Below, in pieces: positions 47,442 to 56,090 of a DNA stretch of 64,000 bases; position 1 is the first letter of the stretch, and every line of letters begins with the position of its first letter. The notes beneath the pieces were generated by a model. That model made no database searches, was not told the origin of the DNA, and was given only the letters and a program-made list of their open reading frames with translations. The stretch is from Phaeobacter sp. J2-8 (lineage in GTDB: Bacteria > Pseudomonadota > Alphaproteobacteria > Rhodobacterales > Rhodobacteraceae), in the NCBI RefSeq assembly GCF_022867865.1, contig NZ_JALIEC010000001.1:124001-188000 (forward strand), in the 5' to 3' direction. A program made the position numbers and the translations under genes.

Positions 47442-48443
47442 TCAGGGCCGCCCGGATTTGTGCCGTCTGAGATCGGACATGGCGCGATAGATCTCCCGCC
47501 GGGCGCGGTTGATGAACCCCAACGGGCGATGCGTAGGCAGGGACATCCAGGGATTGAAACGCATGGTTTCGGCGCTTTTGTCCCGATCCGGTGCGTTGCT
47601 TTGCCGGAAAAGGGTCAAGTCCGCCAGTTTGATGAAATCCGCACCATTGGCGCCCCAGTCGACGGTTGGGTCTTCGATTGGATGTGCCTCCGCGTCCGCC
47701 TGCACCACGACCCCGAAATCGAATTGCGCCGGACCCTCTGCCAAAACCCGCCAGAGATCTTGGCGCAAACCATCTTTACTGTCCACGGCGGCGGTTGGCG
47801 GGCTGTGGCCGATGGCCTTGTATTTCACGGCGCGACCGTCCCCACAGAGATAGGCCGTGGTGCTGTGATAGGTCAGTGACACCAGCGCGCCGACCTGACG
47901 ACCGGCAAATTCACGCGCGGCGCGCAGGGTTTTACGATGAAACAGCCAGAGCATCGCCAGCCCCCATGCCGCGGCCAGGATGCGGCCCGTAGTGATCCCA
48001 TTGCCGCGCAGGTCCTGCATAGGCGTGAAATAGCGGTTGAACGCGGCATATTCCGCCATTGTGGCGGTGAAATAGGTGGGGTGATCAACAAGGATGAAAT
48101 CCTGTTCCGTCACCGGGCCGCTCCCCGGCAACAGCTTCTGTCCCGGCACATCCAGCAGTTTGATCGCCATGCCGCGCACGTCGCGGCGGCGATCGTCTGT
48201 CTGTCCGCCGTTGGAAAACCGCACCAGACAGCGATAGGTTTGCCCCGGTTGAAACACCCCAACCGCAAAACCATCCGGCAGGTCACCCCGCACCCGCAAG
48301 CGCCCCTCGACCAATCCATGATGTTTGCCATGCTGGCCGCGCTTGGCGGTCTTGCCCTCCAGCCAAACGGTTTTCAGATTGTCGCGGATCAGCCCCGCAA
48401 TGACCTGCGGTTCCCTCTTGGGAATGACCTCTTGTGCCAGCAT
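47442..48443 (-). CDS. Minimal catalase-family haem protein (mini-catalase/allene-oxide-synthase type)
   Basis: A 333-residue protein with the catalase core but none of the longer catalase C-terminus. It has a distal His candidate at residue 38 (RGQHGKHHG), 'YRCLVRFSNGGQTDDRRRDV' then 'RGMAIKLLDV' as in catalases, and the haem-ligand region 'RFNPWMSLPTHRPLGFINRA' with the RxxxY motif (Arg315, Tyr319). This layout matches small catalase-like proteins such as coral allene oxide synthase and bacterial mini-catalases, which act on fatty-acid hydroperoxides or peroxide. It follows the cytochrome c gene by eight bases and reads the same way. Hydroperoxide substrate is inference. Confidence 0.82.
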   Translation of the reverse strand: MLAQEVIPKREPQVIAGLIRDNLKTVWLEGKTAKRGQHGKHHGLVEGRLRVRGDLPDGFAVGVFQPGQTYRCLVRFSNGGQTDDRRRDVRGMAIKLLDVPGQKLLPGSGPVTEQDFILVDHPTYFTATMAEYAAFNRYFTPMQDLRGNGITTGRILAAAWGLAMLWLFHRKTLRAAREFAGRQVGALVSLTYHSTTAYLCGDGRAVKYKAIGHSPPTAAVDSKDGLRQDLWRVLAEGPAQFDFGVVVQADAEAHPIEDPTVDWGANGADFIKLADLTLFRQSNAPDRDKSAETMRFNPWMSLPTHRPLGFINRARREIYRAMSDLRRHKSGRP

Positions 48444-48451
48444 GCCGCGCC

Positions 48452-49837
48452 TCAGAGCGATTTGAGATACTCCAGAAGCGCAGATTTCTCATCCGCGTCC
48501 AGATTGGTGCCATAAAGATGCCCGCCGTTGCCATTGCCAATCAGGGTGGTGTCAAACGCAAAACCATCAGAACAGGCAAACCCGACACGCTCGGGATCGA
48601 AATGGGTACAGCCGCGAAAGAATTCCGCCGGGCGATCCGCGGGGGGCGACAGAAGATCGGCCAATGTCGGCACCGATCCGTTGTGCAAATAGGGCGCGCG
48701 CATCCAGATGCCATCCAACGGCATGTTGGCATAACCGTCCGTCACGCGGTAATTGTTGAATTTCCAGGAATATTTGTCGCCGACAGTGCCAAAGTAGCGC
48801 ACCATCGTGGCGTCAAACAGATCGGTGCGCTGGCGGTCGGTGCCCAGCACCTCTGAGGATGTGACCTGGCCCATGCGGGCCGCGCCGGGATCGTGACAGG
48901 TATCACAGGCCGCGCGCTGGTAAATTTCGCGCCCTTTGTCGGCCAGCTCCGGGTTAAAGGCCACCGGAAACGGCGGCGGCGGGAAATCCATCAGCCAATT
49001 GGACACCCGCTCAATCGCATGTTTTTCCAACAGCCAATCCGAAGCACCACCGGCCATCGCGGCGGAAATATTGCGTTCGTCGAGCGAGGCATTGTTGCCG
49101 TCCCAGTGAAACCAACCGTCCAGCCGAATACGCTGGTTCCAGACAGACGGGAAATCCACCGTGCCGACACGGGTATCGTCGGCGGGCTCCAACCCCCAGC
49201 GTTGACGCCAGAAATTGCCGGCATCGGTGCGCCCGGGCCCATGTTCGGGGCGGGTGGCAAGCCAGGCAAGACCATCTTTCAGGCTGGTGATCTGATCCTC
49301 CAATCGCGGGAACACCACAAACCGCAAAACGATCTTGTCGAGAAAGCTGGGGGGGCGGCCGTTGGCCTCGGCCGCAGCGATCACCGCATCAGCGGTCAAT
49401 CGGGCATCGCTGGCGGCCGTGGTCAGGAATTCGATATAAGCCTGAAGATTCAGCGCATTGGCAGGCGCGCCCAACACCAAATGAGCCGCGCCATTCAACT
49501 GATAGGTCGAGACATGGCAGGTGCCGCAATTGAACCCGACCCGTGGCACCCCGATCCGGCGCACAGACACGCCAATCGGCAGCTCATGCCCGGGTTCGGT
49601 GAGAAACCCGAATTCGGCAAATCCATTTGGCAGATCATCGGCGAATATCGTCGGCAATTCACGCCAGATGGCATAGGGAAACCCGTCAACTTCGGCCCCG
49701 ACAGAGCCATATTTGAAATGCTCGGCCTCGTCCGCGAAATAGGGTGCAGGCCAGGGTTTCACCGTCAGCCTCTTGAACTCAAGGAACAGCGCGGCCGCGA
49801 GCAGGGCGAAGAAGGCCAGAAATATCAGTTTCTTCAT
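48452..49837 (-). CDS. Di-haem c-type cytochrome, RoxA/cytochrome c peroxidase-like
   Basis: A 461-residue exported or anchored protein with an N-terminal hydrophobic segment (KKLIFLAFFALLAAALFLEF) and two haem c motifs, CGTCH (residues 104-108) and CDTCH (residues 311-315). The C-terminal 'YANMPLDGIWMRAPYLHNGS' then 'VPTLADLLSPP' is characteristic of the RoxA group of di-haem oxygenases that cleave polyisoprene, and of related di-haem peroxidases. It is shorter than rubber oxygenase RoxA (about 680 residues). It is divergent from the cyclooxygenase-like gene and upstream of the mini-catalase. Confidence 0.82.
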   Translation of the reverse strand: MKKLIFLAFFALLAAALFLEFKRLTVKPWPAPYFADEAEHFKYGSVGAEVDGFPYAIWRELPTIFADDLPNGFAEFGFLTEPGHELPIGVSVRRIGVPRVGFNCGTCHVSTYQLNGAAHLVLGAPANALNLQAYIEFLTTAASDARLTADAVIAAAEANGRPPSFLDKIVLRFVVFPRLEDQITSLKDGLAWLATRPEHGPGRTDAGNFWRQRWGLEPADDTRVGTVDFPSVWNQRIRLDGWFHWDGNNASLDERNISAAMAGGASDWLLEKHAIERVSNWLMDFPPPPFPVAFNPELADKGREIYQRAACDTCHDPGAARMGQVTSSEVLGTDRQRTDLFDATMVRYFGTVGDKYSWKFNNYRVTDGYANMPLDGIWMRAPYLHNGSVPTLADLLSPPADRPAEFFRGCTHFDPERVGFACSDGFAFDTTLIGNGNGGHLYGTNLDADEKSALLEYLKSL

Positions 49838-49933
49838 GCTACAACTCTATCGGGAATATTGTTGGACATAACACGCATGAGTGTGACACACTGCCCCCCA
49901 TAAATCGAGAAATTTCAGACCTTGGACAGAGCG
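49838..49933. promoter_or_regulatory. Divergent promoter gap of the oxygenase cluster
   Basis: The 96 bases separate the cytochrome c and cyclooxygenase-like genes and must carry both starts. An inverted repeat AGTGT-GAC-ACACT lies at 49880-49892. It may be an operator; no family of regulator can be assigned. The nearest regulator gene is the LysR at 52072-53031. Confidence 0.35.
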
Positions 49934-52051
49934 ATGACCATTGTCGATGACGCGATGAAGGGGCCGTTTTCCGGCTGGAACTGGGCCAGATGGCGCCGCC
50001 CTCTTTTGCAACTGACCTGCATTCTGGTGGGCGCGATGATGTTTTATCGCGGGCTTTTGAACCTGTTTGGTTATCCCAGTGAATGGATTTCGTTGTTTCC
50101 CGGCGTGCCATTGCTGGGCGATATTTGCCGGGTGCCGGCCTATTGGGAACGCTGGGTGCTAGGCCCGGTGTTCATGGGCGGGGTGTTCGGCATTGTGTTG
50201 ATGTGGCGCGAGTTAAAGATCGGCTGGTGGGTGTTCACCGCGCTGAACTTCTTTGTCGGCTATTGGTTCATCTTTGTGCTGGAGGATATCTGGCAGCATC
50301 ACGTCCTGCCGCATATCGTGTTTTCGGCGGTGTTCCTGCCGTTTTATCCCGGCATGACCACGTCGCATTGGTTGAAACGCCAGATTGTCGGGCGGTTGGG
50401 TGCATGGCTGTTGGGGCTGTTGCAGAAACCGGTCATTGGCCGGTTGATCGAGGGGGTGCCGCCGCTGCATTCCTGGGTCAACAAGCTGCTGATCAATCGC
50501 ATTGTCACCCAGGCGCGCAGCCGTCCCCATCCGTTTTCGACGATGGCGCCCTATACCTCCTGGAGCAGTTTGACGGATCGGGTTTGGGCGGGACGGCATC
50601 TGGGGGTGTCAGAAATAGATCAAACCACCCTGCCGGACCCCGAAGGGGTAAAGGAGCTGTTTCGCAGACCGGATGGAACCCAGCGGATGTGCCCGAAATC
50701 CACCTGTCTGTTCCCCACATTTGCGCAATATCTGACCGATGGTTTCCTGCGTACCATGCCGGAAAAAGACCCGGTGACGGGTGATTTGGACCCGGAGCGG
50801 CGCAAGAAGAATACATCGAACCACGAAATCGACATGTGCCCGCTTTATGGCCGCACATCCGCCCAGACCCGTGCCCTGCGTGTGCCCGATCCGGGGCCGG
50901 AGACGCGTGGCATGTTGCGGTCGCAACTGATCAACGGCGAGGAATATCCGCCGTTTCTGTTTCGTGATGGCGCATTGGATGCGGATTTCGCCGTGCTGGA
51001 CCCGCCGCTGGGGCTGGACCGGATTGTAAAGGCCTGTGCCAACCCGGACCCGCAAATCGCGGGCCGCGCGGTGATGGTGCGCGATGCCCTGTTTGCGGTG
51101 GGGGGCGACCGGGTCAATTCCGTGCCTCAGGTGTCGATGATGAACACGCTTTGGCTGCGCGAACACAACCGGCTGGCGCGGGAATTGGGCCGCCGCTACC
51201 CCGCGTGGGATGACAGCCAGGTGTTTGAAACCGCGCGCAATATCATTGTGGTGCAATTCATCAAAATCGTGGTCGAAGATTATATCAACCACATCGCGCC
51301 CTTTGCTGTGTCGCTGAAGGCCGATCCGGCGGTGGCGTGGAATGCGCCGTGGAACAAACCGAACTGGATCACCACGGAATTCAGCCTGCTCTATCGCTGG
51401 CACGCGCTGATCCCTGATCGCATCACCTGGGGCGAAAGCACGCTTGAGGTGGGGCCGGGGTATTTCATGAACAATCTGCCGCTGTTGGCGGTCGGGTTGA
51501 AACGCGGGTTTGAGGACATAAGCGCCCAGACCGCGGCGGAACTGGGGCCGCGCAACACCACAGATCACCTGTTGGATGTGGAAAAGGAGTTGATCCGGCA
51601 GGGGCGGATTTGTAAATTGGCCTCCTATAACGACTATCGCGTCTATATGGGACGGGACCGCGTGGCGGGCTTCGACGAAATCAGTTCCGATCCAGAGGTG
51701 GCGCGCATGTTGGCGGATCTTTACGGCGAGGTCGGCAACGTGGATTTCTTTGTTGGTATCTTCTGCGAAGACCGGGTGGCAAATTCGCCTTTGCCCCGCA
51801 CCATCCTGTCCTTTGTCGCGCTGGATGCGTTTTCCCAGGCGCTGCCTAACCCGTTGTTGTCAGAACATGTGTTCAAACCGCCCGCCGGGTTTGATCAGGA
51901 CGAAGACATGGAGCATCCAAGCTTCACCCGCTATGGCTGGCAACAGATTGTCAGCTGCACCAGCCTGCGCGATGTGGTGGCGCGCAATGTGGCGGAGCCG
52001 GAAACGCTGGGTTTTGTTGCGATGACCCAACCGGGCTGGCAGGTGGAATAA
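49934..52051 (+). CDS. Membrane-anchored cyclooxygenase-like haem peroxidase
   Basis: A 705-residue animal-type haem peroxidase that aligns by eye with prostaglandin synthase. 'NTLWLREHNRLARELGRRYP' and 'IKIVVEDYINHIAPF' match COX segments, and 'EFSLLYRWHALIPD' matches 'EFNHLYHWHPLMPD', keeping the cyclooxygenase Tyr385 (here Tyr487) and the proximal haem His388 (here His490). 'DAFSQALPNPLLS' keeps the Ser530 position (here Ser634). The distal region 'FAQYLTDGFLRT' keeps Gln203 (here Gln265) but has Asp269 where COX has His207. Four hydrophobic helices precede the domain (about residues 23-45, 74-92, 96-117, 122-139); the EGF-like domain of animal COX is absent. The ATG at 49934 is preferred over a TTG at 49922. 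Fatty-acid dioxygenation is the likely activity, inferred from family. Confidence 0.85.
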   Translation: MTIVDDAMKGPFSGWNWARWRRPLLQLTCILVGAMMFYRGLLNLFGYPSEWISLFPGVPLLGDICRVPAYWERWVLGPVFMGGVFGIVLMWRELKIGWWVFTALNFFVGYWFIFVLEDIWQHHVLPHIVFSAVFLPFYPGMTTSHWLKRQIVGRLGAWLLGLLQKPVIGRLIEGVPPLHSWVNKLLINRIVTQARSRPHPFSTMAPYTSWSSLTDRVWAGRHLGVSEIDQTTLPDPEGVKELFRRPDGTQRMCPKSTCLFPTFAQYLTDGFLRTMPEKDPVTGDLDPERRKKNTSNHEIDMCPLYGRTSAQTRALRVPDPGPETRGMLRSQLINGEEYPPFLFRDGALDADFAVLDPPLGLDRIVKACANPDPQIAGRAVMVRDALFAVGGDRVNSVPQVSMMNTLWLREHNRLARELGRRYPAWDDSQVFETARNIIVVQFIKIVVEDYINHIAPFAVSLKADPAVAWNAPWNKPNWITTEFSLLYRWHALIPDRITWGESTLEVGPGYFMNNLPLLAVGLKRGFEDISAQTAAELGPRNTTDHLLDVEKELIRQGRICKLASYNDYRVYMGRDRVAGFDEISSDPEVARMLADLYGEVGNVDFFVGIFCEDRVANSPLPRTILSFVALDAFSQALPNPLLSEHVFKPPAGFDQDEDMEHPSFTRYGWQQIVSCTSLRDVVARNVAEPETLGFVAMTQPGWQVE

Positions 52052-52071: not shown

Positions 52072-53031
52072 CTATTCGGCCCGCGTCGCCGGTCGGATGG
52101 TACAGCCGAGCGTGGCCAGCACCGCGCGCACCTCGCTGTCATGGGTTGCGGCCTCGTGGCCCAGCCATTCCGCAAACCGCTTGACGATCCGGCGGCTAAG
52201 GTGGCGCGGCGGACAGACCAGCCAATAGGTTGGTGTTTCCAGCGCGGGAAAGTCCACGGACAGCGGCACAAGATCACCACGTTTCAGATCGTCGACATAA
52301 AGTGCGGCATTGTCCAGCGCGACGCCGCCGCCGCGCTTGGCCATCTCGATCACCATCGACGACCGGTCAAACCGGAAAGGATAGGTGAGGTCCGACAGCT
52401 CTATCCGGGTTGCCGCCAACCAGACATCCCAGCGGCATTGCGATTTCACACTGTCAATCAACCGCGCCTGGGCCAGCTGCTCGGCCGGGGTGTCGGCAAG
52501 GGATTGCAGATGCGCCAGATATTCCGGGCTGCAAACCGGCATCACCAGATCATTCATGATCGGTTCCACCGACAGGCCGGGCCAATCGCCATGGCCATAA
52601 CGCAGGTCGAAATCAAACGGCTCGGCCTCAAACGCCGAGATTTCCGGCGTGGCGTCGATGCGAATGTTCCAATCGGGATTGTCGGCGGCAAAGGTGGCAA
52701 TGCGCGGGCCAAGAAACCGCACGCCAAACGACGGGCTGACCCGCAGGGTCAGACTGCGCAGATGGCGTTGGCGGCCAATGGCGGCGGTGGCATTGCGCAA
52801 TGCGCCAAAGGCCTGGGTGGTGGTCTGAAACAGCCGGTCGCCATCCAGCGTCAGCACCAGCCGCCGCTTTTCCCGGCGGAACAATTTGACGCCGAATTGC
52901 CCCTCCAGGGTGCGAATCTGTTGCGACACGGCAGAGGGGGACACCCCCAGTTCCGCCGCCGCACGGGTCACCGTGCCCAGACGCGCCACCGCTTCGAAAT
53001 ATTCTGTGGCCTTGAGATTGATATCACGCAT
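52072..53031 (-). CDS. LysR-family regulator, GcvA-like
   Basis: A 319-residue LysR protein with the winged helix 'VTRAAAELGVSPSAVSQQIR' and 'TLEGQFGVKLFRREKRRLVL', and an effector domain with 'FDFDLRYGHGDWPGLSVEPI', typical of the GcvA group. It is convergent with the cyclooxygenase-like gene (20 bases between their ends) and divergent from the FzlA-like gene. Its targets are not evident; control of the oxygenase cluster is possible but not supported by position. Confidence 0.92.
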   Translation of the reverse strand: MRDINLKATEYFEAVARLGTVTRAAAELGVSPSAVSQQIRTLEGQFGVKLFRREKRRLVLTLDGDRLFQTTTQAFGALRNATAAIGRQRHLRSLTLRVSPSFGVRFLGPRIATFAADNPDWNIRIDATPEISAFEAEPFDFDLRYGHGDWPGLSVEPIMNDLVMPVCSPEYLAHLQSLADTPAEQLAQARLIDSVKSQCRWDVWLAATRIELSDLTYPFRFDRSSMVIEMAKRGGGVALDNAALYVDDLKRGDLVPLSVDFPALETPTYWLVCPPRHLSRRIVKRFAEWLGHEAATHDSEVRAVLATLGCTIRPATRAE

Positions 53032-53931: not shown

Positions 53932-54963
53932 ATGGATGCGCTGAAACAGGAACTGATGCGTGAGGCGCGGGAAATCGGGTTTTCCGCGGCGCGCATTTGT
54001 CGCCCCGAAGCGGTGCCGCAGGTGGCGGAGCGGTTGGCGGGGTTTCTGGATGCAGGCTATCACGGGCAAATGGGCTGGCTGGCGGAGCGGACCCATTGGC
54101 GGGGGGATCCAAGCGCATTGTGGCCAGAGGCCCGTTCGGTGATCATGCTGGCCGAGAATTACGGCCCTGATCATGATCCGCTGGCGATATTGGCACAACA
54201 AGAGCGCGCGGCGATTTCGGTGTATGCCCAGAACCGGGATTATCATGACGTATTGAAGAAACGTCTGAAGCGATTGGCGCGTTGGATGGTGGCCGAGACC
54301 GGCTGTGAATTGAAGGTGTTTGTGGATACCGCGCCTGTGCCGGAGAAACCTCTGGGGCAGGCGGCGGGATTGGGTTGGCAGGGCAAGCACACCAATCTGG
54401 TCAGTCGCGAGATGGGATCGTGGTTCTTTTTGGGAGCGGTGTTTACCACGTTGGACTTGCCGGTGGATACGGCAGAGGTCGATCACTGTGGGTCATGCCG
54501 GAAATGTCTGGATATCTGCCCCACAGAGGCCTTTCCGGCGCCGTATCAACTGGATGCCCGGCGCTGCATTTCCTATTTGACGATTGAACACAAAGGGCCG
54601 GTGGATCTTGATCTGCGCCCGAAGTTGGGCAATCGGATTTACGGCTGTGATGATTGTCTTGCGGTCTGTCCGTGGAACAAATTTGCGGCGCGCTCGGCAG
54701 AGGTGAAGTATCACGCCCGGGCGGAATTGCTGGCGCCGGAACTGGCGGAGCTGGCCGGTTTGAACGATCCTGAGTTCCGGGCGTTCTTTTCCGGTTCGCC
54801 GGTCAAACGCATCGGACGTGGGCGATTTGTGCGCAATGTGGCCTATGCGATTGGCAATTCCGGTCAGGCGCGGTTGCGCCCCGTGGTGCAGGCGCTGTGC
54901 GAAGACGAGGATGCCACAGTGGCCGATGCGGCGCGCTGGGCGGTCGGGCAGCTGCCGGATTAG
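53932..54963 (+). CDS. queG: Epoxyqueuosine reductase
   Basis: QueG reduces epoxyqueuosine in tRNA to queuosine using cobalamin and two 4Fe-4S clusters. The 343-residue product has the cluster motifs '[16 protein letters not shown]' and '[13 protein letters not shown]', the cobalamin-binding stretch '[19 protein letters not shown]', and a HEAT-like C-terminus ('[18 protein letters not shown]'). The start is directly after the intergenic repeat. Confidence 0.95.
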
Positions 54964-56090
54964 CGCGGCATCGGGTTTTCGGCGCGGTTATAGGCCGTCC
55001 AATCCGTGATTTCGGGATAAAACGTCCGTCGCCATGCCCGCACGCGCGGGTTCATCACACGGCGCCAGACCGGCGGGATCAGGGCCGCGATGGTCATCAC
55101 GGAATAGCCATAGGGCAGTTGCGGGGCCTCGTCCGGGCCATAGGTTTGCAACAGGGGAAAGCGCCGGTCCGGTTTGTAATGGTGGTCGGAATGGCGTTGC
55201 AGGTTGATGAGCAGCCAGTTCGAGGCCTTGTGGGCGGCGTTCCAGCTGTGGCGGGGTTTGACGTGTTCGTATTTGCCATCGCCCAGGTGTTTGCGGGTCA
55301 GGCCGTAATGTTCGACATAATTGACCAGCTCCAGCTGCCAGACGGCCGTAAACGCCTGGATCAGGAACAGGCCAAGCCCGACCCAGCCGCCCAGAAGGGT
55401 GGCAAGGACCAGCATCGCCGCCTGCAAGGCCCAGTACCGCCAGAACGGGTTGGATCTGTGATGCCAGGGGCGGTTTCTGCGGGTTTGCAACGCGGCTTCG
55501 GCAGCAAAGGCCGAGCGCAGGGATTGCTGTAGCACCCGGGGAAAGAAGCGGTGAAAATTCTCGTTATAGCGGGCCGTCACCGGGTCGCGCGGCGTGCCGA
55601 CATAGGTGTGATGCACCAACAGATGCTCTGAGCGGAAATGCGAATAAAGCACCATCGACAGCAGGATGTCGCCCAGCCAACGTTCCAGCCGATTGCGTTG
55701 GTGCATCAATTCATGCGCATAGTTGATGCCGATGGTGCCGGTCAGCACGCCCACGCCAAAGAACAACACGACGCTTTCCAAAGTCCCCAGATGATCAGCG
55801 CGCGGCACGTACCAGACCAGGGCAAACAGGGTTACCACCTGCACCGGCACCCAAAGCGATGTCAGGCGTTTGTACCATGTCAGTGTGGCTTCAGGGGTGT
55901 TGGGATCGGGATTGTCGAGGTTCAGGCCGGTCAGGGCGTCCAGTGCCATAAAGAGATACCAGGCGCACAGCGGCAAGAGCACCACAGTCCAGCCGCCGAA
56001 AATCGCGCCAATCCAGGCCAGCGGGAACAACAGAAACGACACCCAGAATGGCAGGGCGCTTTGCAATTGGCTGAAGTCTTGGTTTGACAT
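54960..56090 (-). CDS. alkB: Alkane 1-monooxygenase (AlkB family)
   Basis: AlkB is a membrane di-iron enzyme that hydroxylates the terminal carbon of n-alkanes with rubredoxin as electron donor. The 376-residue protein has several membrane helices and all the histidine boxes: HELMH (126-130), EHLLVHH (155-161), NYVEHYG (257-263) and LQRHSDHH (297-304). No rubredoxin gene is adjacent. The last codon overlaps the queG stop, so the two are convergent by four bases. Confidence 0.92.

Follow-up and report, generated by a model that had tools for sequence, protein, structure and literature searches.

The window, by which we mean the whole stretch of DNA that we analysed (64,000 nucleotides), contains a small cluster of genes for haem proteins, together with a regulator gene. 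Its features are as follows.

47442 to 48443, minus strand: mini-catalase gene P0001 (333 amino acids), encoding a probable fatty-acid-hydroperoxide-processing haem enzyme
48452 to 49837, minus strand: P0002, a RoxA-like di-haem c-type cytochrome (461 amino acids) with two CXXCH motifs, PYLHNGSVP and an N-terminal signal or anchor
49838 to 49921: divergent promoter region between P0002 and P0003, an 84-bp gap
49880 to 49892: perfect palindrome AGTGTGACACACT, a candidate operator
49922 to 52051, plus strand: P0003, a COX-like fatty-acid dioxygenase (709 amino acids) bearing signatures of a 10S-dioxygenase and, at its N-terminus, a membrane domain
52072 to 53031, minus strand: P0004, a LysR-type regulator, convergent with P0003 and a candidate regulator of the cassette

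P0001 opens with an ATG at 48443 and runs to 47442 on the minus strand; on the plus strand of the same interval, frame 1 is interrupted by an internal stop. Its start lies 8 bp past the stop codon of P0002, the upstream gene, and the two are probably co-transcribed. The original prediction of a 333-residue protein with His38, Arg315 and Tyr319 is borne out on the minus strand. In fact, R35, H38, R315 and Y319 are all present, and they are invariant in an alignment of 16 relatives. The codons for the haem site are at these positions.

48330 to 48341, minus strand: R35-G36-Q37-H38, the distal haem motif
48084 to 48086, minus strand: codon 120 (Asp120, distal site)
47487 to 47501, minus strand: R315 to Y319, the proximal RxxxY haem ligand motif

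We do not think that this frame arose by chance, because a genome from the same genus encodes a 68% identical orthologue in the syntenic place, Aestuariispira has a relative at about 40% identity, and the Pfam Catalase model (PF00199) matches it locally, if weakly (E 0.0022; 17.6 bits, below the 25-bit cut-off). No NCBIfam model matches P0001 or any of six mini-catalase relatives. Matches to P0001 were found in 10 of 147 relatives' genomes, 25 of 385 genomes sampled from the class and 44 of 388 sampled from the phylum, with some overlap between the samples and with full-length catalases among the weakest matches.

It had been claimed that P0001 keeps the haem core and little else, which understates the resemblance: the catalase core is kept in the structure model, with Z scores of 19.7 to 21.6 over 270 to 286 aligned residues among the 50 matches listed. 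The model is of moderate quality (pLDDT 70.8), and residues 27-39, which include the distal His, are below 50. Among the matches listed, a 33-kDa catalase-related protein from Mycobacterium avium comes first (Z 21.6 and 21.1), followed by coral allene oxide synthase (AOS; 20.9 and 20.6) and the best catalases (20.5 and 20.3). All of these lie within about 1.3 Z, so the structure comparison is of little use as a discriminator. A family profile made from 16 rows ranks the M. avium protein (E 2e-18) above the catalases (1e-12) and coral AOS (2e-8). If P0001 is used alone to search the PDB sequences, then only true catalases are found, weakly (best E 0.015) and in the distal region; AOS and the M. 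avium protein are both absent from those matches.

The distal site was originally thought to be nearer to that of AOS than to that of catalase. We find that it matches neither. In P0001, Gln37 precedes the distal His38, and Asp120 aligns with the place of the distal Asn; the stretch around NNTPVFF / VDHPTYF aligns clearly with true catalases. True catalases have Val-His-Asn, and P0001 has replaced both the Val and the Asn. In coral AOS, the distal residues are T66, H67 and N137, with the motif R64-x-T66-H67 (PMC5617202), so two of the three distal residues differ and we reject an identification as AOS from the distal motif. P0001 does have the catalase fold, the proximal Tyr and the distal His. 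As for monofunctional haem catalases (PF00199), P0001 scores below the cut-off of the family and is without the distal Val-His and Asn.

To see how common this arrangement is, we collected 73 non-identical mini-catalase rows, with matches below 200 bits dropped and near-identical rows merged. Nine have Gln-His-Asp, 19 have Ala-His-Asn, 15 have Val-His-Asn, 4 have Val-Phe-Asn, and the rest have other sets. A branch of the maximum-likelihood tree (support 90/92) sets the nine Gln-His-Asp proteins apart from the other rows, which suggests a single clade but is not decisive.

Another suggestion was that a hydrophobic stretch at residues 153-169 could bring P0001 to the membrane.

47940 to 47990, minus strand: codons of helix 152-168, the hydrophobic stretch, unconvincing as a membrane segment

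The stretch does exist, as a helix in the model, but membrane segments are usually more hydrophobic than this one, whose 19-residue Kyte-Doolittle mean peaks at 1.45. With a 17-residue window it scores 1.40, which puts it sixth among the listed mini-catalase rows, and the values for the same-genus orthologue and for Paracoccus yeei are 0.97 and 0.65. Hydropathy does not support membrane insertion of this helix, and the N-terminus of P0001 is not hydrophobic either.

In contrast to P0001, P0003 carries an N-terminal extension of about 150 residues, which holds three to four candidates for membrane helices (28-46, 77-95 and 102-120, and 130-145 by eye). This N-terminal domain (window positions 49922-50400) has no match in Pfam, and its residues E121, D122, H126, H127 and H131 are invariant in three orthologues. 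It is found in 3 of 16 10S-dioxygenase-like proteins (the window, L002 and L003). Hydropathy, along with the positive residues between the helices as read by eye, suggests that the catalytic domain of P0003 is cytosolic, which would match the leaderless P0001; this topology rests on hydropathy, as the AlphaFold model of P0003, made from three sequences, has a pLDDT of 34. P0002 has an N-terminal signal or anchor and is probably periplasmic, whereas P0001 is expected to be cytosolic, so the compartments of these two proteins do not match.

P0003 matches PF03098 (E 2.5e-37) and COX-1 (E 3e-46); its listed start is a TTG, with an ATG at 49934. We compared 32 distinct COX-like proteins at the positions that are named in PMC13049297. 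Where COX has T-H-Q-F and the Nostoc 10S-dioxygenase (10S-DOX) has F-T-D-S-F, P0003 has T-D273-G-F. It has further signatures of 10S-DOX in Tyr491, His494, Tyr454, Phe610 (at the place of COX Tyr504) and a DAFSQA that is like the terminal motif, and it departs from 10S-DOX at T310 (Ala). The T-D-x-F type accounts for 16 of the 32 proteins. A second group of 8 has HDW or HNW, YRMH/YRLH and ASRRL, and from these motifs the group looks alpha-dioxygenase-like; the remaining 8 are more distant peroxidases. According to PMC13049297, the Nostoc 10S-DOX oxidises oleate and linoleate to 10S-hydroperoxides. Given the Nostoc signatures in P0003, its product is probably a 10-hydroperoxide too, and since P0003 is without the distal His, it seems less likely that it reduces this hydroperoxide itself.

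The cytochrome, P0002, carries an inter-haem Trp and a distal His motif in addition to its two CXXCH and PYLHNGSVP. In a pairwise alignment, Gly263 is at the place of RoxA Phe317. Among the 40 other RoxA-like rows that cover this column, none has Phe there; in six rows without a mini-catalase link (L049-L053 and L056), a Phe lies one residue along, so the verdict for those six depends on the alignment. The Gly weakens the idea that P0002 is a fatty-acid dioxygenase like PA2077. The chemistry of the RoxA-like cytochromes here need not be that of PA2077 (PMC4496055). The cytochromes that are beside mini-catalases keep the CXXCH pairs, and PYLHNGSVP where it is covered.

Widespread in the Pseudomonadota is a gene pair in which a mini-catalase, in most cases bearing a signal, an anchor or a lipobox, is adjacent to a RoxA-like di-haem cytochrome. 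Among our 73 rows, 21 have a RoxA-like neighbour but no COX-like neighbour (for example L107, L108, L173-L177 and L181), and 20 of these 21 are outside of the Gln-His-Asp clade. With starts taken crudely, a hydrophobic N-terminus is present in 18 of the 21, in 1 of 11 COX-linked mini-catalases, and in 3 of 41 others. (L173 and L009, which are among the 21, have a signal-like sequence that was missed by the hydropathy window or by the choice of start.) The 41 rows without a recognised partner are an upper bound, as 21 of them were read with less than 3 kb on the shorter side. Within the open literature that we searched, we found no paper on this pairing of exported mini-catalases with RoxA-like proteins.

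As for regulation, the pattern AGTGTGNCACACT occurs at a single place in the source genome (4.8 Mb), where, being a palindrome, it matches on both strands. The same-genus locus keeps the arms of the palindrome and differs at the centre base; the palindrome is absent from the other 8 loci that we tested, two of which are Aestuariispira-type. A sigma-70 scan of the region gave no promoter-like sites, and terminator-like sites were at chance level. The LysR gene P0004 is kept in the same-genus locus. A few genes past it, at 54960-56090, is a fatty-acid-desaturase-family gene (alkane-hydroxylase-like by eye), and the block is similar in the same-genus locus. Elsewhere in the source genome, katG (G000:C11:18195-20032, L183), which has a divergent LysR-like gene next to it, falls into two overlapping frames towards its 3' part; this is either a sequencing or assembly error or a broken gene.

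All three genes, COX-like, RoxA-like and mini-catalase, are together in 5 of the 73 rows: the window, the same-genus genome, Aestuariispira, P. yeei and Rhizobium phaseoli. The layout is divergent in Aestuariispira, as it is in the window, and co-directional in P. yeei, where four plasmid records hold all three genes by their coordinates (we read the sequence of one). In R. phaseoli, the mini-catalase is fused to a dioxygenase of the other, alpha-dioxygenase-like type, and the cytochrome gene follows. A COX-like gene with a mini-catalase is also found in two Ruegeria plasmids and in Methylobacterium currus. Among the titles and abstract openings that we saw in an open-licence library, which lacks most subscription journals, we recognised no description of this cassette in proteobacteria.

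Viewed from the dioxygenase side, 7 of the 16 distinct 10S-DOX-like genes adjoin a mini-catalase, 2 adjoin a P450 (R. etli and S. medicae) and 2 adjoin a KatG-like gene (G739 and G763). For the other 5, profiles picked out neither a mini-catalase nor a RoxA-like or P450 neighbour among the genes listed; profile scoring covered these three families, and the KatG neighbours were noticed by eye. Asp120 is present in all 7 mini-catalases that are beside 10S-DOX-like genes (six are Gln-His-Asp, and that of M. currus is Ala-His-Asp and belongs to another clade), versus none of the 4 that are tied to the alpha-dioxygenase-like type (two fused and two at L178). This is suggestive that Asp120 tracks a 10S-DOX-like partner, with counts that are small and with six of the seven Asp cases from one clade. 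Across all rows, Asp120 is found in 7 of 11 COX-linked versus 6 of 62 other mini-catalases (Fisher p 0.00025, which ignores kinship); phylogenetically independent comparison leaves 4 pairs and no power. Also, two Gln-His-Asp proteins (L036 and L125) lack a COX-like neighbour within the 16-20 kb that was read, and their genomes (G034 and G237) have no COX-like match.

Several side observations concern gene arrangement. On two rhizobial plasmids (L063:3691-6593 and L064:3640-6557), a 10S-dioxygenase-like COX gene is beside a cytochrome P450 gene. Fungal DOXs are fused to P450s, and the rhizobial pair is possibly a bacterial split version of these fusions. At L170:7162-11154 and L171:5602-9583, a katG-like gene comes directly after a 10S-dioxygenase-like COX gene, and both genomes are without a match to P0001. 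In four cases (L041:6570-9557, L111:2826-5888, L113:3350-6427 and L076:1318-3618), a mini-catalase domain is fused to a LodA-type amine oxidase, with the match at L076 limited to the N-terminal LodA domain. Because Phe replaces the distal His in all four, these domains are unlikely to be catalases as usually understood. Finally, on S. fredii pNGR234a (L117:1948-8915), a Gln-His-Asp mini-catalase shares the 8.9 kb that was read with a RoxA-like gene in two frames, another di-haem cytochrome and a gene for a patatin-like phospholipase; no COX-like gene is present there.

We favor the explanation, with a probability of roughly 0.58, that P0001 processes the 10-hydroperoxide made by P0003 in a lyase or isomerase reaction. 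From the gene order, the recurring linkage, the residues, the clade and the signatures that we observed, we infer this activity, and with it the substrate, the type of reaction, the compartment, the role of the cytochrome and the co-regulation. P0003, like the Nostoc 10S-dioxygenase, would convert an unsaturated fatty acid to a 10-hydroperoxide, and because it is without the distal His that COX has, it would be expected to leave the hydroperoxide intact. Cytosolic P0001 would act second, binding the hydroperoxide at its Tyr319-ligated haem, where Gln37, His38 and Asp120 would steer cleavage of the O-O bond towards lyase- or isomerase-type products rather than the turnover of H2O2. The products might be a short-chain oxo-acid plus an alcohol or aldehyde, or else an epoxy-alcohol or diol. 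Periplasmic P0002 may act on these products, or on hydroperoxides, across the membrane. The theme of the original prediction, which was a catalase-fold enzyme with a probable role in lipid-hydroperoxide metabolism and a COX-like neighbour, survives, while the likeness to AOS does not hold in detail.

The strongest alternative, which we consider unlikely, is that P0001 scavenges peroxide or works as a peroxidase, lowering the tone of H2O2 or hydroperoxide, and so protects or tunes a peroxide-activated COX-like enzyme, with no defined oxylipin. Its best support is that a KatG-like gene is directly beside the COX-like gene in G739 and G763, whose COX-like proteins are 59-60% identical to P0003 (the KatG-like gene of G763 is a PF00141 peroxidase by test; that of G739 was read by eye), together with the lack of any Pfam Catalase match in the source genome. 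With the KatG of the source genome in two overlapping frames, spare peroxide defence may be scarce. Also, some mini-catalases are fused to LodA-type amine oxidases, although those lack the distal His, and P0001 alone does match true catalases, albeit weakly, in the distal region. On the other hand, both the distal Asn and the Val of catalase are replaced in P0001, the loss of the distal His from P0003 predicts an unreduced lipid hydroperoxide, and the partners elsewhere include P450s.

It seems very unlikely that the cassette oxidises a lipid other than a free fatty acid (a hopanoid, a carotenoid or something derived from an alkane) and that P0001 processes that peroxide. RoxA cleaves polyisoprene, the gene directly upstream of P0001 encodes a RoxA-like cytochrome, and the alkane-hydroxylase/desaturase-family gene at 54960-56090 would also fit, but P0003 has the signatures of 10S-DOX and P0002 has Gly263 at the essential Phe317 of RoxA. 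Least likely of all is that P0001 is a coral-type AOS: it does share the catalase fold (1u5u at Z 20.9, level with the best match), and it has a polar Gln37 at the place of Thr66 and a neighbour that probably makes hydroperoxides, but Thr66 and Asn137 are both replaced, the coral protein is below MAP2744c and the catalases by family profile, P0003 is COX-like (PF03098) rather than a lipoxygenase, with no lipoxygenase fusion or pairing, and the AOS route goes via an epoxy allylic carbocation, which a monoenoic 10-hydroperoxide fits poorly.

If P0001 does process the 10-hydroperoxide of P0003, then Alphaproteobacteria would have a COX-to-mini-catalase oxylipin route like the cyanobacterial one. 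It would rely on a Gln-His-Asp distal haem site that is absent from the catalase and coral enzymes compared here, and it would be a natural experiment on how the catalase fold turns from destroying peroxide to lipid chemistry. More tentatively, and we would call this possible rather than likely, mini-catalases may be a module that generally supplies the second step in the processing of lipid hydroperoxides, and that has been joined several times over to oxygenases of unrelated kinds: haem enzymes that are 10S-dioxygenase-like, alpha-dioxygenase-like or RoxA-like, and lipoxygenase in corals and cyanobacteria. The compartment would be matched to the partner, with exported mini-catalases accompanying periplasmic RoxA-like proteins and cytosolic ones accompanying COX-like proteins. 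The lineage in the window would have specialised its Gln-His-Asp site for 10-hydroperoxides, within a self-regulated oxylipin cassette (RoxA-like cytochrome, LysR gene and private operator) that is comparable to the oxylipin signalling system of P. aeruginosa. The pairs of exported mini-catalases and RoxA-like proteins in the Pseudomonadota would give a search for bacterial oxylipins a defined set of genes to examine.

In that P. aeruginosa system, PA2077 and PA2078 are fatty-acid di-haem cytochrome c peroxidases with a LysR regulator, OdsR (PMC4496055 and PMC6377657). Like RoxA and these two proteins (PA2077 and PA2078 by their description), P0002 has the paired CXXCH, PYLHNGSVP, the inter-haem Trp and the distal His, and there is a LysR gene nearby. 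Unlike them, P0002 has Gly263 at Phe317 and is shorter, and the window adds a COX-like enzyme and a mini-catalase. Coral AOS and hydroperoxide lyase (1u5u and 3dy5) share with P0001 a catalase fold in a short protein or domain, a Tyr-ligated haem and a distal His; they differ in having Thr66 for Gln37, Asn137 for Asp120, and a fused lipoxygenase instead of a COX-like partner. The 33-kDa protein from M. avium paratuberculosis (3e4w and 3e4y), which has peroxidase activity, is the best solved relative of P0001 by profile (2e-18) and comes first by structure, where it is tied with AOS, but it is only 20-23% identical to P0001.

Instead of the coral fusion of AOS and lipoxygenase, the best functional precedent appears to be the tandem of 10S-dioxygenase and catalase-related lyase in Nostoc punctiforme, where a catalase-related hydroperoxide lyase cleaves the product of the 10S-dioxygenase (PMC9579011 and PMC13049297). 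PMC11719350 tells of a catalase-dioxygenase fusion, while PMC9579011 and PMC13049297 tell of a separate gene. Compared to the Nostoc tandem, whose lyase is represented here by its description, the window has a RoxA-like cytochrome, a membrane domain on the dioxygenase and an alphaproteobacterial host. Nevertheless, both systems join a COX-like dioxygenase to a catalase-related protein, and P0003 shares the distal Asp, the Tyr, the Phe and the terminal motif of the Nostoc enzyme.
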